A stretch of DNA of 64,000 bases from Candidatus Hydrogenedentota bacterium (GTDB lineage Bacteria; Hydrogenedentota; Hydrogenedentia; Hydrogenedentales; JAEUWI01): the NCBI GenBank assembly GCA_016791475.1, contig JAEUWI010000025.1, forward strand, positions 1 through 64,000, written 5' to 3'. A program made the position numbers and the translations under genes. The notes below the pieces were generated by a model. That model ran no database searches, had not been told where the DNA came from, and was given only the letters and a program-made list of their open reading frames with translations. The number at the start of each line of letters is the position of its first letter. The first letter of the stretch is position 1. Shown here piece by piece: positions 22,647 to 50,981 of the stretch.

Positions 22647-25600
22647 TCACCCATTCAGCGCGTGGACAAACAAGGTCTTCGTCCCCACCTCGGCCTTCGC
22701 CAGTTCCACCAGATGCTGGTGATGGGTGAAGTAGATCACCTGGGTTCGCTCGGACAGCCCCGCCAGCACCTCCAGCGCGGCGGCCGCGCGGGCGTCGTCG
22801 AAATTCACCAGAATATCGTCGAGGACAAAAGGAATGGGCGCGTGGCGCTCCAAATGCCGCTCCAGGCTGGCGATGCGCAACGCGAGGTAAAGCTGGTCCG
22901 CCGTACCTTCGCTCATGCCCGCCACTTCGACCAGCGATGCCGTCTCCGCGCGAACACCCAGAAGCACGTGGCGATCCCGATCATCTACGTCGGCGCGAAG
23001 CTCCGCGAAGGATCCCAGCGTCAAGGTACGAAAGATCTCCCCCGCGCGAGCCAGCATGGGCTCTTGATTGGCCGCACGGTAGTGCTCGATGGCACGGCTC
23101 AAAGCGAAGTGGGCGATGCGCAGGCGCGCATACTCTTCGGCGTCTTCCGCGATGCTCGCGATAAGGCCTTGAGCCTCCGCGGCGGCATCGGCGGCCTGAC
23201 TCCCGCCGTTCATCCGGGCAAGTTTGCTCTTGATGTCGCCGATGGACTCCTGCAGGGCGAGGCGTTCATCGTCGAGGTCTTCGATGCGCTCGTCGAGGGT
23301 CTCCAACGTCGGGATAAGCGCATTCGCGTTCTCGGCGTTCACCATGGCGACGACGCCGTCCATTGACTCACCCGGAACGAGAGCGAAGAGGCGCTTGTCG
23401 ATGTCGTGCAGGAGTCCTTCAATACGCTGCCGTTCGGCAGCGCCTTTTTCCGCGTCAGGCAGCGCGGCGGCATCTTCCACGCGCGCCTCGGCGCACAACG
23501 CGGCCAGCTCACCTTCCGCACGGGCCAGAGCCGCATCCGCGGCGCGATGGCGCTCCTCTTCCTCGCGGAGTTGCTTCGTCAGGCGCTTCTGTTCGCCGTC
23601 CGCTTCCCGATTCTGCTTCAGCGCCTGATAGAGGGACCGTACGACGGCGTACTCGTCCCCTTCGGCCTCCAGCCCAACTGCCGAAGCCAAGGCACGGGCC
23701 TCGCGCCGAAACTCGGCGTCGTCCCGCAAGATAAAATCCACGCGCTGCTGAAGCTCCACCGAACTTGCGTGCTTCATCAGTACCTCGTCGATCGCCTCCA
23801 CGATGGCGAGAGCCTCTGCACCGACGGCATCCGGACGGGCGCCGATGACCTGCATCATTGCCGACCAGGCATCGCGCCAGGCATCTTCTTCCTCCCGCGC
23901 GCGGGTGAGGGACGCTTTGGCGGCGGGGCAATCCACGCGCTCAAGTTTATCCAGCGTCTTTTCCAGATGAATGCGCTGTTGGGCGATCTCGCCCTGCCGC
24001 TTCAATTCAATCTCGGCGTGTTCGGTCAGGGCCGCCAGAGACAGCCCGGAGACGCCTTCGAGGCCGCAGTTTTCCAAGGCCTTGCTCAAATCGGCGTAGT
24101 GCTTCGCGATGGTCTCGCGCAGGACACCGGCTGATTTCTCACTCTCGTGCAGTGCGGCAATCTCTCCCTGAATCGCATCAACGGATTTGCGCAACACCGC
24201 CATCTCCGCCGGACTGCGGGGTTCGATACCAGCGGGCGCCCACAGCGTGGACCAGGCGGACTCGAGTCGCTCATGGTGCGCGGAAGCCGCCACCAGAGCA
24301 TCTTCCTGTTGTGTGCATTTCTCTTGAAGCAGGAGCAGCGCGCTTTCCAGTTGTGCGCGCTGCGCAACGCGATCGGCCTCCGTGCGGAGACGATCAGACA
24401 GATCGTCGGCATCCGCCGTCAGGGCCGCAACGGCGTCCGCCAGGTTCTGGACCTCCGGGTGACGCTCGCGGATGTCGTCCACGATAGCGCGTACTTCGGG
24501 GGCGGAGACCTGATTGGGCGGCGTGGCCCTTTCCCAGGCAGCCCGCGCGAAGGCCCAACTTTGCTGACGCTGGCCCCGCGCTCTTTCAAGTGCTTCGAGG
24601 GAAGGTGCGTGAAACTGATGTTGATAGGCGGCGAGGTCAGACTTGGCCCGCTCCCGCTCCGCCACGCTCGCGGCCAACTGTTTCTCCGCCTCAATGACGC
24701 GTCGCGCCGCTTCCCCCAAATCTATTCGAAACTGCTCGATGCTCTCCAACGAGGGAAGGGGCAGGACTTCCAGGGCTTCCATCGCACCTGACCAACAGCC
24801 CAGACGAGCGATGCCCGACCGTATGGACTGAATCAATGCTTCCGTACGCGCTTCACATTCGCGCAGCATGACCTCACTGTCGCCGGCCTTGCGAACGCGC
24901 TTTAGTACTGCTTCGAGAAGCGCCGTGTCGGCGGTTGCGCCCGTACGGGCGTGCTCCGCAATCGTCTGCTCCCGCTGCCGTTCAACATGGTCGAGGGTGG
25001 CAGCGGCGTGGTTCACGGCATCCCGGCAGGACTGGCCGCGCCGGTCCAATTCCACCAGACGCTGCTTCTGGCCCGGCGGCAGGCGCAATTCCTCAGCCTG
25101 GTCCAGCGACCAGTGGGGACGAAGGTGGTGGAGTGTACGTTCCGCCTCATCGCGCAGACGCGCAAGTTCGGGGGCAAGCTTGCGCTCGAGGTCGTTTCGA
25201 GCTTTCTCATTGACCCCGAGCTCCAGATGGAGCTTTTCGATTTCGTCTTCGCGGGCCAGCAACAGCGTATTGACGTTTAGTGGCTCCAACTCCAGCTTCA
25301 AGCGAGCGATGGCATCGCCAGCCTGCGCGAGGATCTCGCGCGCGTTTCGACCAGCGTTTTGCGCGTGAATACGCCGTTCGGAGAAATCCGTGGGCAGCAA
25401 AACCGCCGCCGACACGGGCGCCAGCGCCTCGAGCAACGCCGCCCGCCGGGATACGAGCGGCAGCGCCTCCTGGATGCGTTTCAAGCGCGCCTGCTCGGCG
25501 CGGGCCTCGCCAAGTTGTCCATCAAGCTCCGTGCGGCGCGCCTCGGCGGCCTGCCGTTCACTCTCCAGCGTTTCCCACTCGCGCGAAGACAGTTGCGCCA

Positions 25601-26192
25601 CCTTAACGGCCTTGCGCGTGGTGGCGAGTTGGCCGAGGGCGCTGTTGATGCGCGGCCTGGATGCGCTGGGCTTGAAGAGTTCGCCCGCGTCGCTGTCGAG
25701 CTTGGCCAGGAGCGCGCGGAGCTGGCCCATGCCCGACGCGGCGGAAAAGAGAGCCTGGCCCACATCGCCTTCGCCCTGAACGAGCGCCTGGCCGCCGCGA
25801 ACCAGTTGGTCATGGGTGAGCCCGAAGAGGTTGCGGAAAGCATCCACATCCACCCCGCCAAGATAGGGCGCGAGGACATCGTCGGGCAGGGCTGTTTTTT
25901 CGTCTTCGGCCAGAAGCGTGGCCTTGTTGCCCTTGCGGCGATAGAGCGTGATGCTTTGCTTTTCATTGGCGAGGGTCGCACCGATACGCAACTCCGCCAT
26001 TCGGTGGAGGAAATCGTCCGCCGTGCGAGTCTCGATACCGTAGAGCAATTGGGTGATCGCGCGGAGGGTCGTGCTCTTGCCGGCCTCGTTGGGCCCGTGA
26101 ATGAGATGGAGCCCTTCTTTCCCGCCGGAGAGGTCGAGGCTGCGATCGGTAAAGGCGCCGAAGGCTTTGAGGTGGAGCCGCTGGATTTTCAC
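22647..26192 (-). CDS. YhaN-like AAA ATPase (Rad50/SbcC-type SMC-like protein)
   Basis: An 1181-residue ATPase. The N-terminal half-domain has Walker A GPNEAGKST (residues 33-41) and the YhaN-type start (LHLKAFGAFTDRSLDL). About 850 residues of charged coiled coil follow. The C-terminal half-domain has the signature-like SEGTADQLYLALRIASLE and Walker B PFVLDDILVNFDD. Together with its 4-base-overlapping upstream partner, a YhaO-like nuclease, it should form a Mre11-Rad50-like complex that processes DNA ends. I do not see the zinc-hook CxxC of true Rad50/SbcC near the middle of the coiled coil. Bacillus YhaN/YhaO are the closest family names; the exact role there is not settled. Confidence 0.88.
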   Translation of the reverse strand: MKIQRLHLKAFGAFTDRSLDLSGGKEGLHLIHGPNEAGKSTTLRAITQLLYGIETRTADDFLHRMAELRIGATLANEKQSITLYRRKGNKATLLAEDEKTALPDDVLAPYLGGVDVDAFRNLFGLTHDQLVRGGQALVQGEGDVGQALFSAASGMGQLRALLAKLDSDAGELFKPSASRPRINSALGQLATTRKAVKVAQLSSREWETLESERQAAEARRTELDGQLGEARAEQARLKRIQEALPLVSRRAALLEALAPVSAAVLLPTDFSERRIHAQNAGRNAREILAQAGDAIARLKLELEPLNVNTLLLAREDEIEKLHLELGVNEKARNDLERKLAPELARLRDEAERTLHHLRPHWSLDQAEELRLPPGQKQRLVELDRRGQSCRDAVNHAAATLDHVERQREQTIAEHARTGATADTALLEAVLKRVRKAGDSEVMLRECEARTEALIQSIRSGIARLGCWSGAMEALEVLPLPSLESIEQFRIDLGEAARRVIEAEKQLAASVAERERAKSDLAAYQHQFHAPSLEALERARGQRQQSWAFARAAWERATPPNQVSAPEVRAIVDDIRERHPEVQNLADAVAALTADADDLSDRLRTEADRVAQRAQLESALLLLQEKCTQQEDALVAASAHHERLESAWSTLWAPAGIEPRSPAEMAVLRKSVDAIQGEIAALHESEKSAGVLRETIAKHYADLSKALENCGLEGVSGLSLAALTEHAEIELKRQGEIAQQRIHLEKTLDKLERVDCPAAKASLTRAREEEDAWRDAWSAMMQVIGARPDAVGAEALAIVEAIDEVLMKHASSVELQQRVDFILRDDAEFRREARALASAVGLEAEGDEYAVVRSLYQALKQNREADGEQKRLTKQLREEEERHRAADAALARAEGELAALCAEARVEDAAALPDAEKGAAERQRIEGLLHDIDKRLFALVPGESMDGVVAMVNAENANALIPTLETLDERIEDLDDERLALQESIGDIKSKLARMNGGSQAADAAAEAQGLIASIAEDAEEYARLRIAHFALSRAIEHYRAANQEPMLARAGEIFRTLTLGSFAELRADVDDRDRHVLLGVRAETASLVEVAGMSEGTADQLYLALRIASLERHLERHAPIPFVLDDILVNFDDARAAAALEVLAGLSERTQVIYFTHHQHLVELAKAEVGTKTLFVHALNG

Positions 26193-27454
26193 TCGCCCAT
26201 CTCCAGGCGCTGCCCGACCGCGCGCAGGAGCGCCTCGGATTCATCGAGCCATTCCACGAGCCGCTGGGGCTGGTCGAGGCCGAGGGCGCTTTCGCCTTCC
26301 GCGAGTTCCACGGGCAGTTTTCCATGCAGCGGTTCAAGCAGGGCGGCCAGTTCAGCGAGAGAAGCCTCGTCCGTCTTCATGAAGGCGATCACGTGCGCCA
26401 GTTCCGCGAGGGGCCCCTCGTCGAGGGGCTCGCCGGCGGACTTCGGCACGGTAGTGCGCACTTTCACCTTTTCAATCCATACCTGATCGCCGCCGTGGAT
26501 ATTGGCGATGTTGCGAATCTCACCCAGCAACCGCTTGGGCCGCGCCAGCAGTTCACCGTGGGCCTTGCTGGCGCCGGTGAAGATCGGGCGCACGGCAAGT
26601 AGACGTTCGCCGGCGGTGTCGATTGCTTTCAACAAGGCGTCCTTGAAATCATCCACGCATTCGTCCAGCGTGGCGCAGCGCGATGCGTCCACGGCAATCT
26701 CCGCCCAGCGCACCACATCGAGTTCGCGAAAATCGACCTCGTGATTACCGCTATCATCCACGCTGACCACCAGGCAACCTTTGGGCCCGGTCTCCCGGAT
26801 GTGCCGGCCCTGGATGTTGCCGGGAAACCAGATCGCCGGATCGAAGACACGCACGGCCTCCTGCTTGTGGATGTGGCCCAGGGCCCAGTAGTCGTAGCCC
26901 GGCTTTCTCAAGCCTTCGACGGTGCACGGGGCATAGTTGTCGTGGCCTTCGTAGCCGGTTAGGCTGGTGTGGAGCAGACCGATGTTGTAAACACCCGGCA
27001 CGGCTATTGGGTAGTTGGCGCTCAGGTCCACCGTCACCGCACGGGTGGCAAAGCCCTGGCCGTGAATGGCCACGCCAATGTCTTCCAGGTGCATCGTCGC
27101 CGCCTTCTTCGTGGGGAATCGGTGTATGTTGTCCGGCAGTTGGAGGCTCTTGGTCACGACGCTCTGGGCATCATGATTGCCCGAGATCAGGTAGACCGGG
27201 ATCTTCGCATCGCGCAGGCGCGCCATCTGGCGTGTAAAGAAAAGACCCGTATTGTGATCGAGCCAGTCGCCGTCGTAGACATCGCCCGCAATGAGCACAA
27301 AATCGACTTCCTCTTCCAGCGCAACGTGAACCAGATTTTCCAGCGCGCGGCGGGTGGCGCCGCGCAGGGCTTCTTGCGGCGCGCCTTCATACTGGGCGAG
27401 CCCGCGCAGGGGGCTGTCGAGGTGCAAGTCGGCGGCGTGGATGAATTTAAACAT
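26189..27454 (-). CDS. YhaO-like metallophosphoesterase / Mre11-type DNA exonuclease
   Basis: A 421-residue calcineurin-like nuclease. The metal-site motifs are in order: ADLHLDSPLRG (D8, H10), IAGDVYDGD, SGNHDAQS, LLHTSLTGYEGH and ALGHIHKQE. About 170 C-terminal residues follow, as in YhaO and SbcD-like proteins. It overlaps the following YhaN-like gene by 4 bases (ATGA), which implies a stoichiometric complex. The start is ATG 27454 with GAGAA about 4 bases before it. Recombination or DNA-end repair is the expected role; in this family the nuclease acts together with the ATPase. Confidence 0.9.
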   Translation of the reverse strand: MFKFIHAADLHLDSPLRGLAQYEGAPQEALRGATRRALENLVHVALEEEVDFVLIAGDVYDGDWLDHNTGLFFTRQMARLRDAKIPVYLISGNHDAQSVVTKSLQLPDNIHRFPTKKAATMHLEDIGVAIHGQGFATRAVTVDLSANYPIAVPGVYNIGLLHTSLTGYEGHDNYAPCTVEGLRKPGYDYWALGHIHKQEAVRVFDPAIWFPGNIQGRHIRETGPKGCLVVSVDDSGNHEVDFRELDVVRWAEIAVDASRCATLDECVDDFKDALLKAIDTAGERLLAVRPIFTGASKAHGELLARPKRLLGEIRNIANIHGGDQVWIEKVKVRTTVPKSAGEPLDEGPLAELAHVIAFMKTDEASLAELAALLEPLHGKLPVELAEGESALGLDQPQRLVEWLDESEALLRAVGQRLEMGE

Positions 27455-38916: not shown

Positions 38917-39882
38917 TCACATCCCCTTCATCACCAAGCCACCCAACAGCAACACCGCAAGCGGTTCGATCAAGCCGATGAGAATCCGCAGCTTGAACAC
39001 TGCGCTGTCGTAGAGCAGCCCCGAAAGCTTTTCGAAGGCCACGTCCAACTTGCCGGTGTGCTCGCCGGTGTTGATATACATCAGATTCTTCTTCGGGAAG
39101 AACTTCGACTGGGTAAGGGCCTCCTCCAGCGTGAAACCCGCTTGCAGCAGCGGGGCCAGCTTTTCAAAGTCCGACGCGATGCGTTTGGCGCCGGTCACCT
39201 CGCCCGACATCCGCACGGCGTGGTGCAGGGGAAGTCCGGCGCGGGTGAAGACCATCATGGCCCAGGCAAAGCGGGAGAGCAGAATGCTACGCACGATCCC
39301 GGCGATGGGCCAGCAGTGCATGAGGATGGACTCGCGGGTGGTCAGCAAAAGGGTGAGTCGGGCGATGAGGACCACTGCGAGCAGCGCGCCGCCCACGGTG
39401 AGGCCGAAGTTCGACAGAATCCAGAAAAGCTGAACTTCGAAAGGCGCTCTGGCGATCCCTGCCACGTCGGAAAGGAACGCCTCGAGTATGGGAATGCCCA
39501 CGACCATGGCCACGAGCACCGCAGCGGGATAGGCCACCTGCCGGATGACGGCGTTGTACATTGCCCGTAGATCTTCGTAGTACTTCGTAAGCTGGGGCAT
39601 TACAACGGCGAGCCCGCCGGTCTTCTCCGCAACAGAAATCAGCTTCACAAAGACCGGCGAGAGACGCCTGCTATGGAACTCGACCGCCTGAGCAAGGGTC
39701 GCACCCTGCTCGATGGCTTGGCGGAGTTCCCGGGCGATATTCCTGAGCTCCCGGCTACCACCGCTTTCCTCCAGCACCTTGAAGGCGCGCACCAGGGGCA
39801 CACCGCCATCATACAAAGTCGAAAGGGTATGGCAGAGCCGCGCCATGTCTTTGCTGGGGAGTGATGAAGAGATCAGGCCCAC
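38917..39882 (-). CDS. Type II secretion / type IV pilus GspF-PilC-like inner-membrane protein
   Basis: A 321-residue membrane protein with two T2SSF domains (about residues 10-130 and 210-320). The first contains TLSTLYDGGVPLVRAF and KTGGLAVVMPQL; the second contains SRFAWAMMVFTRAGLPLHHAVRMS and TGEHTGKLDVAFEKL. GspF/PilC proteins form the platform that the motor ATPase turns. Usual length is about 400; here the N-terminal extension is missing. No pilin or secretin gene is beside it. PilT at 57.2 kb and an MshEN-domain protein at 44 kb are the nearest related parts. Confidence 0.88.
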   Translation of the reverse strand: MGLISSSLPSKDMARLCHTLSTLYDGGVPLVRAFKVLEESGGSRELRNIARELRQAIEQGATLAQAVEFHSRRLSPVFVKLISVAEKTGGLAVVMPQLTKYYEDLRAMYNAVIRQVAYPAAVLVAMVVGIPILEAFLSDVAGIARAPFEVQLFWILSNFGLTVGGALLAVVLIARLTLLLTTRESILMHCWPIAGIVRSILLSRFAWAMMVFTRAGLPLHHAVRMSGEVTGAKRIASDFEKLAPLLQAGFTLEEALTQSKFFPKKNLMYINTGEHTGKLDVAFEKLSGLLYDSAVFKLRILIGLIEPLAVLLLGGLVMKGM

Positions 39883-40340: not shown

Positions 40341-41765
40341 GTGGTATTCAGTTCCATCGTCTTCCTGTTTCTCTTCCTCCCCATCGTGGCCACAGCCTAC
40401 TTCCTTGTTCCCCGAAGCGCGCGCAATGTGCTGCTCCTCGCCGCGAGCCTGTTTTTCTACGCCTGGGGTGAGACCACCTTCGTCTTTGTAATGCTGCTTT
40501 CCATCGCGCTGAACTACGGCTTCGGCCTGTGGATCGGCTGGACGCAAGGTACCGCACGCGCGCGGTTGCCGCTGGTGCTGGCTGTGCTGGTGAACCTGGA
40601 GCTGCTGGCGCTTTACAAATACAGCACCTTCTTCATCGATAATCTGAACGTGGCCATCGGCTGGTTTGGCGGCGCGCCGATCCTGCTGGAAGGACGACAC
40701 CTTCCCGCTGGCATTTCTTTCTTCACCTTTCAGGCCATGTCCTACATCATCGACGTCTACCGGAACGAAGCGCGGCCCCAGAAAAACCCGCTGAACCTCG
40801 CGCTCTATATCGCGCTGTTTCCCCAGCTCATCGCCGGGCCCATTGTGCGCTACCAACAGATCGCGGAAGAGATTCTATCGCGGGAATCGCGGCTAAACGA
40901 CGTGGCCGAGGGCATCAAGCGTTTTATCATCGGCCTGGCGAAGAAGGTGCTGATCGCAAACACGGCGGCGGCGGGCGCGGATCTTGTGTTTGACCTGCCC
41001 GCCCATGAACTGACCACGCCCCTCGCCTGGTTTGGCATTGCCTGCTATACCATACAGATTTACTTCGATTTCTCTGGCTATTCCGACATGGCTATCGGTC
41101 TGGGGCGCATCTTTGGCTTTCACTTTCTGGAGAACTTCCAGTGGCCCTATGCTGCACGATCGATCCAGGATTTCTGGCGGCGCTGGCATATCTCCCTGTC
41201 AAGCTGGTTCCGCGACTATGTGTACATTCCCCTCGGCGGTAATCGGGGCAGTCGCGGGCGCACGGCCTTCAACCTCGTGGCCGTTTTCTTCCTCTGTGGC
41301 CTGTGGCACGGCGCCGCGTGGAACTTCGCCATCTGGGGTCTGTTTCACGGCGCCTTTCTGGTGCTGGAGCGCGGGCGTTTTGGCACGTGGCTGGGCGCAC
41401 GGCCACGCTCTCTGCAACACGGCTATACGCTTCTCGTCGTGATGGCGGGCTGGGTCCTCTTTCGCGTAGAAAGCCTGGCAGAGGCGGGCGTCTTTTTCAG
41501 CGCACTCGCGGGCTTCGCCGAAGGCAGCAGCGCGGTGCGGCCCCTGGCCATGTATTGCACGCCCGATCGCGTGCTGGCGCTCGCCGTGGGGGGCGTAGCG
41601 GCAATGCCGGTGCTTCCGTCCCTGCGCGAGTGGCTGGCGCGGCGGGATCGTGGAAGGGGGTTGGTGGAGTGGGGTTCATTCGCGGGCCATGTGGCCCTGC
41701 TCTATGCCTGCGCGGTGACGCTCTCCGCGCAAACCTACAACCCGTTCATCTATTTCAGGTTTTGA
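40341..41765 (+). CDS. MBOAT family O-acyltransferase (AlgI-like)
   Basis: A 474-residue polytopic membrane protein. The catalytic His is in CGLWHGAAWNFAIWG, and RRWHISLSSWFRDYVYIPLGG is the second family block. AlgI/DltB/PatA-type proteins pass acyl groups across the membrane to an extracytoplasmic acetyltransferase. The start is GTG 40341 with AAGGAGA 10 bases upstream. The gene is followed by an AlgX/AlgJ-like SGNH protein, the expected partner, so together they probably O-acetylate a surface glycan. A repeat element now lies between the two genes. Confidence 0.93.
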   Translation: MVFSSIVFLFLFLPIVATAYFLVPRSARNVLLLAASLFFYAWGETTFVFVMLLSIALNYGFGLWIGWTQGTARARLPLVLAVLVNLELLALYKYSTFFIDNLNVAIGWFGGAPILLEGRHLPAGISFFTFQAMSYIIDVYRNEARPQKNPLNLALYIALFPQLIAGPIVRYQQIAEEILSRESRLNDVAEGIKRFIIGLAKKVLIANTAAAGADLVFDLPAHELTTPLAWFGIACYTIQIYFDFSGYSDMAIGLGRIFGFHFLENFQWPYAARSIQDFWRRWHISLSSWFRDYVYIPLGGNRGSRGRTAFNLVAVFFLCGLWHGAAWNFAIWGLFHGAFLVLERGRFGTWLGARPRSLQHGYTLLVVMAGWVLFRVESLAEAGVFFSALAGFAEGSSAVRPLAMYCTPDRVLALAVGGVAAMPVLPSLREWLARRDRGRGLVEWGSFAGHVALLYACAVTLSAQTYNPFIYFRF

Positions 41766-41833
41766 GATGGGCAACTCGTTCACAATCCGGCAACTGGCAC
41801 CGACGGCTGAGGAGTGCGCTTGCATGGAGAGTT

Positions 41834-41971
41834 TACCCCCCCTGCCCCCCCGTAAGCGGGGGGAACCCTTTCATGCGAGATGGCTTCCACTGTGCCCGAG
41901 CTTTTGGAAACATCCCCGCCGCGCGACTCCCGCATTTGCTCCCCCCCGCTTGCGGGGGGGCAGGGGGGGTA
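41834..41971. repeat. G/C-run inverted-repeat element, copy 1 (138 bp)
   Basis: It starts with TA and C-runs (TACCCCCCC, then TG, CCCCCCCG) and ends with the mirror G-runs (CGGGGGGGG, CA, GGGGGGGTA). Each end also contains a small palindrome (CCCCCGTAAGCGGGGG and CCCCCGCTTGCGGGGG). A second, shorter copy lies at 49851-49944. Confidence 0.85.
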
Positions 41972-42005
41972 TTCTACGCTCGCGTCCAACCTGTGGGGGG
42001 CAAGG

Positions 42006-43163
42006 ATGACGCGCCCTTTCCAAATCGCCCTGGTGGCAATTTTCTTCACCCTGCTCTGGCTGCCGCTGGCGGACAATTTGCTCCATCTGGATCGCAGCCG
42101 GCCTTCCGATGAAAACCGAAGCCTCTCCCCCGCACCCCGCCTCGCATTGACCGAACAAGCCCTGAAAGAATTCCCCCGGAGCTTCGAGGCCTTCTACGAC
42201 GACCGATTCGGATTCCGGAATTTTCTGGTGCGTCAATTCCACACCGTAAACTTCGGCTGGCTCGGCATCGCGGATCCCGAAAAGGTCGTGAAAGGAAAAG
42301 AGGGCTGGCTCTATCTCGGCCGCAAAGTGCTCATTGACGAATCGCGTGGCTTGAACCCGTTGAAGGAAGATGAAGTCCACGCCTGGGCCACGAAAATCGA
42401 CGCCATCCGGCAATGGCAGGAGGCGCGCGGCGGGTCCTTTCTATTTGTGCTTGTACCCGACAAGCAGCGGGTCTTCCCGGAGTATCTGCCGGATTGGTAC
42501 GTGCCCTCGGAGTCGCGGCGCAAAGAGCAATTGCTACAGGCGCTCGCCCCGATGGGCACGCCGGTGCTGGATCTGACGGAGTCGCTTCGCGAGGCGAAGA
42601 AGACGGGTGATGATCCGGTTTGGCTCAAGACCGACACCCACTGGAGCGGTGTGGGTGCGTGGCACGGCTATCGGGCTATCCTGGAGCGGCTGCAACAAGC
42701 GATTCCAGGGCTTCAGCCCCTGGAACGGAGCGCCATCACCCGAACAGGGGAACCCGGACTCGGTGCGGAGGCGTGGCGTTCCACAAGCGATCTGGCGGGG
42801 CTGCTGGGTGTGCGAGATCTGGCGCCGGAGCCCTGGGTGGGGCTGTTGCCCGCCGCGCCGCGTGCCCGCGCATCGCAGGACATTCCCGCACCCACACGCA
42901 ACGTGGGCGGGGTCAATGTGCCCTACGCGACAGCAATTGATGATCCAGGGCTTCCCACGGCGCTGGTCATCGGTGGCTCCTTCCGCTGGGCGCTGGTGCC
43001 CCTGCTTTCGGAGCATTTCCGGCGCGCGCTCTACACCGACTTCCGCTACTGTTTTTTCGATCCAGCCTTGGCCGACGCGGAGCATCCAGACGTCATCCTC
43101 TTCGTACTCACGGAGCAGCAGCTCGTGTGGTTTCCACAACCACCGGCGGAGACAACGTGGTAA
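42006..43163 (+). CDS. AlgX/AlgJ-like SGNH acetyltransferase
   Basis: A 385-residue protein with an N-terminal membrane anchor (FQIALVAIFFTLLWLPLA). The AlgX/AlgJ catalytic pair lies in KTDTHWSGVGAW (Asp-x-His) and the nucleophile Ser in VIGGSFRWAL. The family block KEGWLYLGRKV is near residue 99. These enzymes move acetyl groups onto exopolysaccharide in the periplasm and work with the MBOAT protein encoded just upstream. The start is ATG 42006; the longer frame runs back into the G/C-run element. No alginate biosynthesis genes are nearby, so the acetylated polymer is probably the product of the 6-20 kb locus or another glycan. Confidence 0.88.
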   Translation: MTRPFQIALVAIFFTLLWLPLADNLLHLDRSRPSDENRSLSPAPRLALTEQALKEFPRSFEAFYDDRFGFRNFLVRQFHTVNFGWLGIADPEKVVKGKEGWLYLGRKVLIDESRGLNPLKEDEVHAWATKIDAIRQWQEARGGSFLFVLVPDKQRVFPEYLPDWYVPSESRRKEQLLQALAPMGTPVLDLTESLREAKKTGDDPVWLKTDTHWSGVGAWHGYRAILERLQQAIPGLQPLERSAITRTGEPGLGAEAWRSTSDLAGLLGVRDLAPEPWVGLLPAAPRARASQDIPAPTRNVGGVNVPYATAIDDPGLPTALVIGGSFRWALVPLLSEHFRRALYTDFRYCFFDPALADAEHPDVILFVLTEQQLVWFPQPPAETTW

Positions 43164-43222: not shown

Positions 43223-43822
43223 TCAGACGACTTCCGTCAGTTTTGTAACGATTTTCGTCACGAGACCGTAGGCCAGCGCCTCGTCCGCATTCATCCAGAA
43301 GTTGCGGTCGCTGTCCTTGGCAATCTTTTCAACGGGCTGGCCGGTTTCGCCGGCGATCAACTGATTGATGCGCTGGCGGATCTTGAGAATCTCCTGCGCC
43401 TCGATGCGGATATCGGAAGCCTGGCCGCCCGCGCCGCCGCTGGGCTGGTGCAGGAGGTAGCGTGTGTTCGGAAGGGAGAAGCGCTTGCCCTTGTCGCCGC
43501 CAAAAAGAATCGGCACCGCGATACTGGCGACCCAGCCCGCGCCGATGGTGTAGACGGGCGACTCGATGCATCGCATGACGTCGTGAATGGCGTAGCCGGA
43601 ATCCACGTGCCCGCCGGGCGAGGTAATGATAACCTTAATCGGGTCGTGGGAGTCGGTGTTCAGGATGATGAGCTGGCCGATGACCTTCTCCGCCAGTTCC
43701 TGGTCCACCGTACCGGAAACGAGAATAGTGCGGGACTTCAGCATTTTCTGCATGATGCCCTCACCACCCTTTTCGTCTTTCTTCTTCGCATCGTCTTCGT
43801 CGTCGTGCCAGATGTCGGTCAT
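43223..43822 (-). CDS. clpP: ClpP-family protease subunit with Asn at the triad Asp position
   Basis: A 199-residue ClpP-like serine peptidase subunit. The nucleophile Ser is in GWVASIAVPI and the triad His is in YLLHQPSGG. By eye, the segment DSDRNFWMNADEA aligns with the usual DTDRDNFMSAEEA, so the third triad residue (Asp) is replaced by Asn. Listeria ClpP1 has the same change and depends on a second ClpP, so this may be a partner subunit rather than a full protease. An acidic/lysine-rich N-terminus (HDDEDDAKKKDEK) replaces the short propeptide. No clpX or second clpP is nearby. Confidence 0.88.
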   Translation of the reverse strand: MTDIWHDDEDDAKKKDEKGGEGIMQKMLKSRTILVSGTVDQELAEKVIGQLIILNTDSHDPIKVIITSPGGHVDSGYAIHDVMRCIESPVYTIGAGWVASIAVPILFGGDKGKRFSLPNTRYLLHQPSGGAGGQASDIRIEAQEILKIRQRINQLIAGETGQPVEKIAKDSDRNFWMNADEALAYGLVTKIVTKLTEVV

Positions 43823-43946
43823 CTCGGGTCCTCGTAGCGGCGTACCATGCCGGGGTGATTGAGTGGATGGGCCGCGATTCGCGCGGGCCGTGGGTATAGC
43901 CCGCTATTGTGTCACGATCCGGCAATTTGGTTCAAGGCGCGGTCGC

Positions 43947-46900
43947 TCAGAAGGCGCCATAGTAATTGTCGATCGCGCCCATGATGTGGGAGGGCGTCCC
44001 CACCACGGGGGTAATCTCCCGCTGGCTTACATCGCGCAATTTCATGATGGCGGACTCGTCCAGGGGGTTGGCCATGGCCACCACCAGACGATCCTCCGTG
44101 ATGCGCAACGGAATGCACACGTGCCACGTGCACAGATCGCGGTGGAGCGCATCAATGGCTTGCTGCTGGATATGAACCTCCATCGGATTGACCACGGGCT
44201 TCTCCAACTGGCACGCGACCGCCTGGGCAATGGCGTCATCCGTAGTGAATTCACGCTCGATGAGAATGGTTCCCAGGAGCTGTGTGGGGTCGTTCTGTTG
44301 CACATCCAGGGCCTCCGCAAGCTGCTCGCGGCTGAGAATGCCCGCTTTGACCAGGATATCGCCCAGGCTGCGGCTTTCGCCGGGCCGGGCAAGCTCCGAC
44401 AGCAGTATTTCCTGCTGTCGGGCCCTTTCCTCCCGCGATTCCAGCGCCTCGACCGCACTTTTTCCGGCCCCGGCCGTTCCCGCAAAAATGCGCTCCCGGC
44501 GCGACTTCTCCGCCTCCAGCTCCTCCGAAAGCTCGTCACGCTCCTGGAGCACCTGGCTCATCTGGGCCAGGGCCTCGCGGATCTCGTCCTGACGGGCCTG
44601 GGTCTCCTCGCTAAGCAGGGTCTTCTCCAATTCCGCCGCCTCCAGAGCGGCTTTCTTCTCATCCAGCTCGGCGGCGATCACGGCAAGATTTTGCTCATGC
44701 TCCGCCGCGCCGGCGCGGGCGGCTTCGGCCTCCGCACGGGCCTCGGAAATGGCTTCCCGCCGGGTGGCCTCCCGGGCGCGCAGCCCTTCTATTTCCGCGG
44801 CGTTGGCCTCGTGCTGCCGGGTCAATTCATCCAGTTGCCCGCTCAGGACGGCATGGGCGCCGACACTTTCCTCCAGCAGGCGCTCGAGCTCCGCGATCCG
44901 GTCCTCGGCGCTCTGGCTGGACTCCTTGAGTACCCCCAACTCGCGGAGCTGCGCCTGGACCACGGCCTCGCTGGCCGTAAGGGCCGCAGTCAACTCGCCG
45001 TCGGGCTCAAGGTCCCGCGCGGCGTCCAGCGAGGCCTCCAGCATCGCCACGCGGTCGCGCGCGATCTGCAGGGACTCTTCGAGTGCCGCGGCCTTCATGA
45101 GCGTTTCCGCGTGGCCCGAAAGGTCGGCTTCCAGCGCGGCAATGCGGCCTTCCCGTTCTTCCGCCTCCCGTTCCCAGGCCTCGCGCCCGGCGGACGCACG
45201 CTCGCGCTCCTCCTGAGCAAGCGCCTGCAGTGCGTCGAATTCCCGCTGCAACGCGGCCAAAGAGCGGCTCGCGGCATCCAGTTCTTCCGCCTGCGCCGCG
45301 ACGAGGGTCGTGAGGCGCTCGGCCTCCTCGGCGGTCTTCGCAAGGGCCATTTTCTCCCCTTCGAGACGCTCTACGGCGGCATAGAGATCGGCCAGGTCAG
45401 CCTCATCGATGCGGCTACCGGTGGCCTCCGCAAGCGCCACGGCCATTTCGTCCCGGGCGGCTTCGGCGGCGGCCAGAGCGGCCCCGACGGCGGCAAGCTG
45501 CTGCTGGCGCTCGGTCAGGGCATCCTGAAGGCGGGATGCCTCGTTGCGGGACTGGGACAGGGCCGTGGCCTGCGCCGCCTCGTAGGTGCGGTGCGTCTCC
45601 ATCTCCACCAGCAGGGTGCGCGCCGTGGTCACCGTCTCTTCTTCACGGCGCTTCATCGTGGCCAGTTCGCTTTCCATGGCGGTCAGCGCGGCTTGAAGTC
45701 CGGCCCGTTCGGCGCTCATCGCCTCCACCTGGGACTGCTCGGACGAGGCGAGTCGGAGCTTGAGGTCTTGGACCTCATCTTCGAGCTCTTCGACCCGCTC
45801 GCGCGCGAATTCAAGTTCGCCGGGTTCTGGCCGCTCATTCAGGTCGTTCATGAGCGACTGCATCGACGACAATTGTTCGCGAAGCGCATTGGCCTCGGCG
45901 GCCATCTCGGATGCCGCTTCGCTGTCGGCCCGAAGACTTTCCAGTGCCCGCTCCAACGTCTCGACCCGATCACTTTGTGCGGCAAGTTCTTCCACCGTCG
46001 GGCGCGTGGAGAGATCCGCGAGTTCCGACTCCAGCGCCGCAATGCGCGACTCAAGCTCGGCGGCACGCTCCGTGCTCGCGGCAAGTTCTTCCACCGTCGG
46101 GCGCGTGGAGAGATCCGCGAGTTCCGACTCAAGCGCCGCAATGCGTGATTCGAGTTCGGCCGCACGCTCCGTGCTCGCGGCATGTTCCTCCGTCGTCGGG
46201 CGCGTGGACAGTTCCGCGAGCTCCGACTCAAGCTCCGCAATGCGCAATTCAAGCTCGGTGGCGCGTTCCGTGCTCGCGGCATGTTCTTCCATCGTGGGGC
46301 GCAAGGAAAGATCCGCGAGTTCCGACTCCAGCGCCGCAATGCGCGATTCGAGTTCGGCTGCACGCTCCGTGCTCGCGGCCAACTCTTCCGCTGTCGGGCG
46401 CGTGGAGAGCCCCGCGAGCTCCGACTCCAGCGCCGCAATGCGCGATTCGAGTTCGGCTGCACGCTCCGTGCTCGCAGCAAGTTCTTCCACCGTCGGGCGC
46501 GTGGAGAGATCCGCGAGCTCCGACTCCAGCGCCGCAATCCGCGATTCAAGCTCGGCTGCACGCTCCGTGCTCGCGGCAAGTTCTTCCACCGTCGGGCGCG
46601 TGGAGAGCCCCGCGAGCTCCGACTCCAGCGCCGCAATGCGCGATTCGAGTTCGGCTGCACGCTCCGTGCTCGCAGCAAGTTCTTCCACCGTCGGGCGCGT
46701 GGAAAGCTCCGCGAGCTCCAGTTCCAACGCTGCGATGCGTTCCGCCACTGCGGATTCCTCGCCATCGGGTGTAGCCGTCTCGGAAGACGCGGAATCGCGC
46801 TGCGCGAGCGCCAACTGGAGAGCGGTCAATTGATCCGCGCTGGGGGCTTCGGCGAGCGCGGCTTCCAGGGATTGAACCTTCTCCTGCAGGGACTGCAAGG

Positions 46901-48029
46901 TCTCTTCTGACGGGCGCTGTTCCAGCACCGCCAGTTGCTCTTTCAGGGCCGCGATGCGCTCTTCGAGCACCGCCACTTCCTGGCGCTCAAGTTCCATCTG
47001 GGTCAACCGCGACTCCAGTGACGCGATGCGCGCTTCCGCTTCCTCGAGGGCCACGCCGCCGACAGCCCCTTCTCCGGGATCGTTGATGTCCCCTTCATGG
47101 GTGGTAAGCTGCACATCTTCCCCGAGAAAGGCCCGGCGCAGGGCTTCCATCTCGCGGGAAAGTGCGCTCAGGGCGCTCACATGTTGCGCTGTTTCCGCGC
47201 GCTGGAGATCAACCGCACTCTGAAGACGCTCTTCGGAAATCTGGAGCCTGGCCGCCTCTTTGCGCAGGAGGTCGGCCTCGCGCGCCAGCTCTTCGTGTTC
47301 CCGTCGCCGACTTTCCAGTTCGGTGTCGCGCTCCGCCAGCGCCGACTCAAGACGCTCAATTTCCCGGCGGTGCTTGACCACCCGCTCCGTTTCGGCGGCG
47401 AGATTGGCCGAGGCGAAATTCTCCTGCTCGAGGCGAAAAGATTCCATTTCAATATTGAGAGCGTGCACCTCGGAACTCAAAATACGATTCTCGTGGCGGA
47501 GCTGCTCCACTTCTTCGAGCAGGGCGGGATCCTGCGCCGCGACGGGGTGTTCCGCCTGTGCGGGTGGGGTGGCGGCGCCCGGTGCAAGAATTTCGAGCAG
47601 TTCGGCAAGCTGGCGATTCGCCGTGGCAAACTGCGACAGCAGCCCGGACTGCGAACCCGTAACCTGGGTGGTCCAGGACTGGACCGCCCCATGGAGCCGC
47701 CCGATGGTGCTCTCAAGTTCGCGAAGCATGCCGTCCCCGGAGGGTGTGCGGGCGGGCGCGGCGGAAGCCACGGTATAGCGCGTCATGGCGCCTGCGGGCA
47801 GTTGCTCCTGCCCCAGGGCCTGTTTCAGGCGATTAAGTTCGTCATTCGCCTGGGCCAGCGCGGCGGTAAGCTGCTGCCGCTCCTGCAGCACGGCCAGCAA
47901 ACGGCTCAATTGCGTGTTCGCCCCGTCGATCTGTCGTGAGAGCCCCTGCTGCGCCGCCCCAACTTCGGCGGTCCAACTGGAAATAGCGCCACGAAGCTGG
48001 GCGAGCAACTCGCTGTTCGGTGTTCCCAT
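43947..48029 (-). CDS. Giant coiled-coil protein with C-terminal GspE/MshE N-terminal domain
   Basis: A 1360-residue, mostly helical protein. About 1200 residues of Glu/Ala/Leu-rich coiled coil come first. Residues about 428-685 are seven full 33-residue repeats and one partial (consensus around TERAAELESRIAALESEL, then a STRPTVEELAA turn). The last 145 residues form an MshEN/T2SSE_N domain (RSLGDILVKAGILSREQLAEAL, then PVVNPMEVHIQQQAIDAL), the fold that binds c-di-GMP in some members. No ATPase domain follows, so this is not a motor. The start is ATG 48029 with AAGGAAC 4 bases upstream; a near-perfect promoter lies at 48073-48101. The role is unknown: a scaffold or length ruler linked to a secretion or pilus machine is an inference. 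Confidence 0.85.
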   Translation of the reverse strand: MGTPNSELLAQLRGAISSWTAEVGAAQQGLSRQIDGANTQLSRLLAVLQERQQLTAALAQANDELNRLKQALGQEQLPAGAMTRYTVASAAPARTPSGDGMLRELESTIGRLHGAVQSWTTQVTGSQSGLLSQFATANRQLAELLEILAPGAATPPAQAEHPVAAQDPALLEEVEQLRHENRILSSEVHALNIEMESFRLEQENFASANLAAETERVVKHRREIERLESALAERDTELESRRREHEELAREADLLRKEAARLQISEERLQSAVDLQRAETAQHVSALSALSREMEALRRAFLGEDVQLTTHEGDINDPGEGAVGGVALEEAEARIASLESRLTQMELERQEVAVLEERIAALKEQLAVLEQRPSEETLQSLQEKVQSLEAALAEAPSADQLTALQLALAQRDSASSETATPDGEESAVAERIAALELELAELSTRPTVEELAASTERAAELESRIAALESELAGLSTRPTVEELAASTERAAELESRIAALESELADLSTRPTVEELAASTERAAELESRIAALESELAGLSTRPTAEELAASTERAAELESRIAALESELADLSLRPTMEEHAASTERATELELRIAELESELAELSTRPTTEEHAASTERAAELESRIAALESELADLSTRPTVEELAASTERAAELESRIAALESELADLSTRPTVEELAAQSDRVETLERALESLRADSEAASEMAAEANALREQLSSMQSLMNDLNERPEPGELEFARERVEELEDEVQDLKLRLASSEQSQVEAMSAERAGLQAALTAMESELATMKRREEETVTTARTLLVEMETHRTYEAAQATALSQSRNEASRLQDALTERQQQLAAVGAALAAAEAARDEMAVALAEATGSRIDEADLADLYAAVERLEGEKMALAKTAEEAERLTTLVAAQAEELDAASRSLAALQREFDALQALAQEERERASAGREAWEREAEEREGRIAALEADLSGHAETLMKAAALEESLQIARDRVAMLEASLDAARDLEPDGELTAALTASEAVVQAQLRELGVLKESSQSAEDRIAELERLLEESVGAHAVLSGQLDELTRQHEANAAEIEGLRAREATRREAISEARAEAEAARAGAAEHEQNLAVIAAELDEKKAALEAAELEKTLLSEETQARQDEIREALAQMSQVLQERDELSEELEAEKSRRERIFAGTAGAGKSAVEALESREERARQQEILLSELARPGESRSLGDILVKAGILSREQLAEALDVQQNDPTQLLGTILIEREFTTDDAIAQAVACQLEKPVVNPMEVHIQQQAIDALHRDLCTWHVCIPLRITEDRLVVAMANPLDESAIMKLRDVSQREITPVVGTPSHIMGAIDNYYGAF
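45975..46745 (-). repeat. 99-bp tandem repeat inside the coiled-coil gene
   Basis: About eight nearly identical 99-bp units encode the 33-residue repeats. The repeat GTCGGGCGCGTGGA recurs at the same 99-base spacing, so copy number may vary by recombination without breaking the frame. Confidence 0.92.
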
Positions 48030-48101: not shown

Positions 48102-48148
48102 AATAGTCCCGCGAAGCATTGCGATCCGCCGGCCCGGACATCGCCCAC

Positions 48149-49953: not shown

Positions 49954-50703
49954 CTATTCTGAGTCGCGTGGCGCCGCTGTCCCTGCGCTGTCTGGTACCC
50001 GAACTTCAAAGACGACCTGCCGCTTCGCAAGCCACGCGACGCCTACGAGATCATACAATCCGCGCCACAGCCGGTTGTTGATGCCGTACTTGGAGACCCC
50101 TGAGTGACGGGGATGGTGCAGCACCGGGCACTCCACGATGGAAAAGCCCTGGGCTCGCATGAAGACTGCAAGAAAACGATGGACACCATTGAACGCAACG
50201 AGATGCTGAACACAGTGGCGGCGGAAGCCCTTGCTGCCGCAACCAGAATCCCGAATACCATCGTGCAGCACGGCATTGCGAACCGCATTGGCCACGCGGC
50301 TTGATACACGCCGCACCCACGTGTCGTTGCGATTGGCCCGGTAACCGCAGACGCAGTCAAATTCTTTCAGCAACTCCAGGAAGCGTGGAAAATCGGCCGG
50401 ATCATTTTGCAGGTCGCCGTCGAGGGTCAGGATAAACTCGCCTCTGGCATGGCGCATGCCCGCAACCACCGCCGCGGACTGACCCGAATTGCGAACCAGG
50501 GTCAACGGCCTTACGCGCGGATCCTGAAGCTGCGCCTCAGCCAGCCGGTCGCCGGTCTGGTCGGTACTGCCGTCGTTTACGAGGATGCACTCCAGGTCAT
50601 ATTCGCTCAGGGGCGCAAAGGCGTCGAGGATTTTCTCCGCGAGAGGCGCGACATTATCTTGTTCATTGTATAGAGGTACTACGACGCTGACGAGCGTTTT
50701 CAT
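49954..50703 (-). CDS. Family 2 glycosyltransferase (DPM1-like)
   Basis: A 249-residue GT-A fold enzyme: LVSVVVPLYNEQDNV, ILVNDGSTDQTGD, LTLDGDLQNDPADF (metal site) and HHPRHSGVSKYGINNRLWRG near the C-terminus. It lacks the two C-terminal membrane segments of the related enzyme at 14098-15054. Polyprenyl-phosphate sugar synthesis is likely. ATG 50703 is preferred over GTG 50709, with AGGTGA upstream. It is isolated from the main glycan locus and lies between a G/C-run element and a 9-bp array. Confidence 0.9.
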   Translation of the reverse strand: MKTLVSVVVPLYNEQDNVAPLAEKILDAFAPLSEYDLECILVNDGSTDQTGDRLAEAQLQDPRVRPLTLVRNSGQSAAVVAGMRHARGEFILTLDGDLQNDPADFPRFLELLKEFDCVCGYRANRNDTWVRRVSSRVANAVRNAVLHDGIRDSGCGSKGFRRHCVQHLVAFNGVHRFLAVFMRAQGFSIVECPVLHHPRHSGVSKYGINNRLWRGLYDLVGVAWLAKRQVVFEVRVPDSAGTAAPRDSE

Positions 50704-50808
50704 GGGCACGCTTCACCTGTGGGTGGGAAAGATACTTTGGGGATTTGGGGGGATCGGGGCGATAGTATACCTGATCCAGACCACAAAAGGCGCATTTTAC
50801 CGGCGACC

Positions 50809-50907
50809 CATACGACCCATACGACCCATACGACCCATACGACCCATAAGACCCATAAGACCCATAAGACCCATAAGACCCATAAGTCCCATAAGTCCCA
50901 TAAGTCC
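50809..50907 (+). repeat. 9-bp tandem repeat, 11 copies in three blocks (array D)
   Basis: Four CATACGACC, then four CATAAGACC, then three CATAAGTCC units in exact order. Blocks of the same variant suggest stepwise duplication. The array lies 105 bases upstream of the GT2 start and 75 bases beyond the stop of the CehA-like gene. Confidence 0.96.
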
Positions 50908-50981
50908 CATCATTGTGCCGCAATAGTCGGCACCCGGCTCTGAACGACCCCGCCCGCTTCAGCGCGATCCGCCGTCACCCG

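Follow-up and report, generated by a model that had tools for sequence, protein, structure and literature searches.

What does an MshEN domain, usually the partner of a secretion ATPase, do at the end of a protein that has no such ATPase? The question is raised by a gene at 43947–48029 on the minus strand of the DNA analysed here (the window: 64,000 nucleotides, positions 1 to 64,000 of contig JAEUWI010000025.1 in assembly GCA_016791475.1, from a Candidatus Hydrogenedentota bacterium). The gene encodes 1360 residues that comprise an N-terminal helical domain, a long coiled coil and a C-terminal MshEN/GSPII domain. An earlier note, made from the sequence alone, had read this protein as a rod with a possible nucleotide sensor at one end, and had proposed a scaffold, polar organiser or length ruler for a pilus or secretion machine. 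We see about an even chance that the protein serves in the cytoplasm as an elongated, coiled-coil tether or scaffold. Its role is probably that of a tether, not of a sensor or a ruler; of the roles proposed before, 'scaffold or organiser' is plausible. The two conserved ends would then be the working parts: the N-terminal domain may oligomerise or anchor the rod, the coil would mediate its self-association, and the degenerate MshEN domain, no longer a canonical receptor for cyclic di-GMP (c-di-GMP), would dock a protein partner, by analogy with PilB-N, which binds PilZ, and EpsE-N, which docks EpsL. Candidate partners would be, first, ClpP2 (the genome's second protease subunit of the ClpP type) and a polytopic membrane protein and, second, parts of a type IV pilus.

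The gene, its C-terminal domain and its relatives

We placed the start of the 1360-residue open reading frame (ORF) at the ATG at 48029 rather than at the alternative in-frame ATG upstream, at 48119, which would give 1390 residues (30 more), because the N-termini of the orthologs (MGTPNSELL, MGTTNSELL or MAAPTATLI) line up with the shorter form. Opposite-strand ORFs overlap the gene, for instance at 43863–46148 on the plus strand; the minus strand is favoured because it is the one conserved among orthologs. The ORF picked out by the earlier note is real, and is more than a mechanical ORF, since its ends are 47–72% identical to those of orthologs from its own genus and the repeat units within its coil are under purifying selection. 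Pfam and NCBIfam scans of the protein found no C-terminal ATPase domain with Walker A, MshEN being the last domain, and thus confirm that the secretion ATPase is missing. Likewise, the Pfam scan found no receiver domain, and there is no segment of transmembrane strength, as every 19-residue segment has a Kyte-Doolittle hydropathy of at most 1.0 here, and of at most about 1.5 in the orthologs. Membership of the SMC/Rad50 proteins was rejected: the NCBIfam SMC and Rad50 models matched only the coil, far under their cut-offs, and no head domain is present.

The C-terminal domain (144 residues, 43950–44381, minus strand) is a real MshEN/GSPII fold with both subdomains, because the profile matches, the AlphaFold model and the closest known structure agree; a PDB profile and a residue table were also used to assign it. 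Pfam MshEN (PF05157) matches the C-terminus at 55.6 bits against a cut-off of 23.1, and the NCBIfam models NF053729 (c-di-GMP motif domain) and TIGR02538 (PilB N-terminal region) match the adjoining N-subdomain. The AlphaFold model of the domain (12 orthologs) reached a predicted local distance difference test (pLDDT) value of 85 and a predicted template modelling score of 0.73. Its top structural match is Vibrio cholerae MshE (5htl; Foldseek E about 1e-8), with Z 16.3 and 2.3 Å over 138 residues, and the MshEN identity that had been read from the sequence therefore stands. The two-subdomain fold and the Leu, Gly, Gln and Asp residues of the pocket are shared with MshE and with Thermus thermophilus PilF, whereas here the domain is C-terminal instead of N-terminal, comes without an ATPase, and has both stacking arginines replaced. 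Another protein that carries MshEN without an ATPase, and towards its C-terminus, is the c-di-GMP-activated glycosyltransferase NfrB (NCBIfam NF008411 match), but NfrB is a membrane glycosyltransferase and not a coil.

Of 68 Candidatus Hydrogenedentota genomes, 14 have an ortholog, and these represent six families. A search with the C-terminal domain in 40 genomes (the window's own and relatives) returned one set of matches at 131–218 bits and 46–73% identity, mostly in long frames, followed by matches at 113 bits or less. A profile of the N-terminal domain gave strong matches (at least 147 bits) in 13 of the 68 genomes; the fourteenth ortholog genome, G014, holds the C-terminal part only, at a contig edge. 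All full-length orthologs begin with the N-terminal helical domain, in which the W-x-x-E-V unit occurs twice, and continue through a coil and a short G-x-A-G linker to the C-terminal MshEN domain, so that the same domain order, which the earlier note had suggested looking for in other genomes, is conserved across the Hydrogenedentota orthologs. The linker, identified from the alignment consensus and the ortholog sequences, reads RIFAGTAG here (44469–44492, minus strand) and follows the pattern R-x-x-x-G-x-A-G in most orthologs. In a tree of 41 MshEN domains, the orthologs form one clade with support 100/99. Its 13 members are 12 ortholog rows and locus L066, which has ClpP2 synteny too, and the clade carries the signature C-x-W-H-V-C-x-P in the MshEN domain. 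A weaker group (80/70) encloses this clade together with every shorter coil-MshEN protein and two others on long branches.

These shorter Hydrogenedentota paralogs (e.g., the pair at L012, L014 and L073) are mostly 300–760 residues long and fall into separate subclades. They resemble the long protein in having a coil followed by a C-terminal MshEN domain, several with one N-terminal W-x-x-E-like unit, and differ from it in that some keep both motif arginines and in their neighbours, which include PilZ-YkuD and flagellar genes. Two short coil-MshEN genes in tandem, at L012 (G000:C44) and again at L074 (G003:C472), stand beside a gene for a PilZ plus L,D-transpeptidase (YkuD) protein and a BrkB gene, and one of the two retains both c-di-GMP arginines. 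At 2425–9938 of L073 (G026:C203), a 485-residue coil-MshEN gene adjoins flgE, motA and motB and has the opposite orientation to them. The window's genome (G000) has 21 MshEN matches in all, and the putative partners of the domain, from sequence reading, include several pilus-type ATPases, four HDOD-like proteins, PAS-GGDEF, FHA-GGDEF, a Ser/Thr kinase and a cyclic-nucleotide-binding-like protein. The MshEN fusions at its loci L013, L015, L016, L018–L021 and L024 show varying loss of the c-di-GMP arginines.

Beyond the phylum, we considered the best 80 of 317 MshEN hits in a scan of a genome collection. Among these 80, Hydrogenedentota hits showed the coil with MshEN at its C-terminal end, while most hits in other named phyla were MshEN-ATPases; a few departed from this by having MshEN close to the C-terminus: a 243-residue ORF in a Brocadiia metagenome-assembled genome (MAG), a 149-residue ORF in an Omnitrophota MAG and a MAG titled Bordetella. 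The last of these (L123, CAMDLH010000283.1, titled Bordetella parapertussis) has a 372-residue coil-MshEN-like gene of a kind otherwise seen here in Hydrogenedentota, and its title is probably wrong. Among the best 80 of the 317 matches, the long coil-MshEN protein was seen only in Hydrogenedentota.

The c-di-GMP motifs

Does the C-terminal domain still look like a nucleotide sensor? Wang et al. described two 24-residue c-di-GMP motifs, each starting with RLG (PMC5013675), and we defined a c-di-GMP-binding MshEN domain by two RLGxx(L/V/I)(L/V/I)xxG...LxxxLxxQ motifs with Arg at position 1 of each. The motifs here read SLGDILVKAG..Q and LLGTILIERE..Q, so that neither begins with Arg; the substitutions are R9 to S, R38 to L and, also in motif II, G47 to E. 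Ser in motif I and Leu in motif II fall outside even the relaxed motif that Wang et al. used for genome searches, which demands R, K, P or N at position 1 (PMC5013675). The equivalent of R38 is never Arg in the 13 clade members, and that of R9 is kept in 3 (for three clade rows trimmed at the alignment edge, the residues were taken from the ortholog sequences). Work on PilF GSPII-A of T. thermophilus found that binding of any kind needed the Arg of motif II, and constructs carrying Ser in place of R38 did not bind c-di-GMP (PMC12002112). Canonical c-di-GMP binding or sensing by the C-terminal domain is, as far as its residues tell, unlikely, and the alignment weakens the suggestion of a nucleotide sensor. 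Automatic annotation would nonetheless label the domain a receptor, because the NCBIfam c-di-GMP_motif model passes its cut-off (49.2 versus 38 bits) despite the lost arginines.

There is precedent for a docking role of such a domain. The N-domain of Xanthomonas citri PilB, to which PilZ binds, is folded like MshEN but lacks the c-di-GMP residues (PMC8389850). Our model matches it in PilB-N:PilZ (7lkm) with Z 14.2, a likeness that covers the fold and the motif loss, not the PilZ-binding residues; PilB-N, unlike the domain here, is part of a pilus ATPase. Joining a small degenerate signalling domain to an extended coil is known from FrzS and AglZ of Myxococcus xanthus, which have a pseudo-receiver in this role (PMC1974792). 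This is a likeness of logic only, with no homology claimed: their pseudo-receiver is N-terminal, whereas the MshEN domain here is C-terminal and the protein has no receiver domain.

Four observations weigh against a tether with a docking cap. The equivalents of L10, G11, L25, L29, Q32, L39, G40, Q61 and D108 are nearly all retained, which exceeds the needs of pure docking; R9 is still there in the three clade members mentioned above; Arg or Lys is frequent one residue upstream of motif I across the clade; and the coil gene and ClpP2 lie on different contigs in at least five genomes (G002, G005, G007, G015 and G026). With the pocket so nearly complete, the domain may allow weak or altered nucleotide binding. 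On this basis the rod could be gated, its MshEN pocket still binding c-di-GMP or another cyclic dinucleotide and switching the partner binding of the scaffold, and the NCBIfam score, the GGDEF-like proteins with MshEN in the genome, and the shorter pair beside the PilZ-YkuD gene, with both arginines in one partner, all agree with such gating. We nevertheless regard a gated rod as rather unlikely, given that this protein has neither stacking arginine, that no ortholog has the motif-II Arg, that Ser at the R38 position abolishes binding in PilF GSPII-A, and that both motifs fail the relaxed position-1 rule.

The N-terminal domain and the variable coil

The other conserved end, the N-terminal domain (about 150 residues, 47580–48029, minus strand), was delimited by alignment, phylum search and AlphaFold. 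It consists of two units, both with the pattern W-x-x-E-V-x-x-A-Q-x-x-L-x-x-Q-I-x-x-A-x-x-Q-L-x-x-L-L, and of two long predicted helices (residues 4–74 and 98–148), in a model of moderate confidence (pLDDT 76.5). No PDB relative was found by profile search, and Foldseek with the model gave weak helical matches (best E 1.3) that were uninformative.

Between the two ends lies a coil of variable length and poorly conserved sequence (44505–47579, minus strand), characterised by its composition, its periodicity and its identity to the nearest ortholog. That identity is 60.7% over the N-terminal 150 residues and 72.0% over the C-terminal 150, compared with 38.2% over the coil (29.8% when shuffled), and total ortholog length ranges from 583 to 2019 residues, with 583, 1161 and 1360 inside one genus. 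Because the ends are far better conserved than the coil and the total length varies, the coil behaves like a spacer. The ortholog coils have a periodicity peak at 3.46–3.52 residues, a strong heptad signal.

Part of the coil is a tandem array of 99-bp modules of 33 residues (45979–46719, minus strand; 7.5 copies), established with Tandem Repeats Finder (88% matches between copies), residue listing, periodicity and the ratio of nonsynonymous to synonymous differences (pN/pS). The 33-residue modules, each with one Pro, had been noticed in the earlier note; they span only about 264 residues (8 units), and they are not built from three 11-residue turns. Such hendecads were rejected because periodicity power is 3.15 at a period of 3.5 and 0.85 at 3.667, and together with the 4-3-4-3 hydrophobic spacing within units this identifies the modules as heptad helices reset at Pro. 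Differences between units are mostly synonymous (pN/pS 0.31), which argues for selection keeping the units coil-forming. The array is peculiar to the window's genome and was not seen as an array in the orthologs, a similar single motif being present in L055. Its copy number may be imperfect, because the host assembly is of metagenome type (529 contigs).

The length data also bear on the first proposal, that a pilus or secretion machine has this protein as its length ruler or polar organiser. MshEN derives from the ATPases of such machines, of which the genome has several, and a lone GspF/PilC-like gene (T2SSF, 129 bits) stands at 38917–39882 of the window. Yet the conserved length expected of a molecular ruler is not seen: the coil differs several-fold among orthologs and varies even within a genus, which makes a fixed ruler unlikely. 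The proposed link to a pilus or secretion machine fares no better, since no gene of either kind was linked to the orthologs among the neighbours scanned, and no other pilus gene accompanies the GspF-like gene; the conserved neighbour is instead a ClpP-type protease subunit. A ruler or organiser of this sort is thus very unlikely.

The ClpP2 neighbourhood

This neighbour, ClpP2 (43223–43822, minus strand), lies 124 bp downstream of the coil gene on the same strand and was identified as the second ClpP-type subunit of the genome by Pfam (221.8 bits), paralog count and synteny. Its triad positions read Ser-His-Asn, with Asn where the catalytic Asp is expected. It is the most conserved neighbour of the orthologs: 7 of the 14 ortholog loci, drawn from five families, have it downstream in the same orientation. 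In three genomes it follows the coil gene directly (G000, 124 bp; G021, 55 bp; G014, 95 bp), and in G001, G017, G008 and G013 a protein of 600–668 residues with many hydrophobic segments is encoded between the two. This polytopic membrane protein, of unknown family, often precedes ClpP2 and pairs with it also in the genome of L230, which has no coil gene; a search of the window's genome, made with no positive control, did not detect it. The coil gene may have been missed in G003, whose contig breaks off a short way upstream of the gene for the membrane protein. ClpP1 is distinct and sits with ClpX-like and Lon-like genes, while ClpP2, present in about 60 of the 68 genomes and in most of these without a coil gene, stands apart from the ClpX-like gene. 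The association of coil gene and ClpP2 is real but partial, and by itself says nothing on interaction.

Taken further, the neighbourhood would suggest a rod that gathers substrates for a ClpP2-containing protease or positions it, possibly at the membrane protein whose gene lies between theirs. Both the recurrent gene order, direct or with the membrane protein interposed, and the separation of ClpP2 from the ClpX-like gene that accompanies ClpP1 fit this idea. They have to be set against the many genomes with ClpP2 and no coil, the at least five coil-bearing genomes with the two genes on separate contigs, the pairing of membrane protein and ClpP2 without a coil, the failure to detect the membrane protein in the window's genome, and the fact that neighbourhood alone does not show interaction; we consider such a Clp-linked scaffold unlikely. 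It is quite improbable that the variable-length rod with its degenerate MshEN cap, the polytopic membrane protein and the second ClpP form a Hydrogenedentota-specific module for tethered proteolysis.

Several other features were seen around these genes. Adjoining ClpP2 at 40341–43163 are genes for an MBOAT acyltransferase and then an AlgX-like SGNH protein, likely an exopolysaccharide acetylation pair, and an AlgX-like fragment also adjoins the G002 ortholog. Neighbouring AAA_27 (SbcC/YhaN-like) and metallophosphoesterase genes at 22650–27454 form an SbcCD-like pair. Upstream of a glycosyltransferase gene, at 50585–50926, a short repeat translating as (RPI)n is a microsatellite and probably not a gene.

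To return to the scaffold or tether that we favour, its parts are of known kinds; what appears to be new is their combination, the fact that families of the phylum conserve it, and the neighbourhood with ClpP2. Indeed, no description of a coil with a terminal MshEN domain was found in the literature searched, in agreement with the remark in the earlier note that no characterised protein is known to have this architecture. The cell biology of the phylum is little known, and the conserved neighbourhood of coil, membrane protein and second ClpP is a testable one. More generally, coiled-coil proteins that stand on their own are capped, across an uncultured phylum, by a re-used input domain of pilus motors. 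One clade of them has lost the ligand arginines and offers a natural test of how MshEN may shift from nucleotide receptor to docking module.

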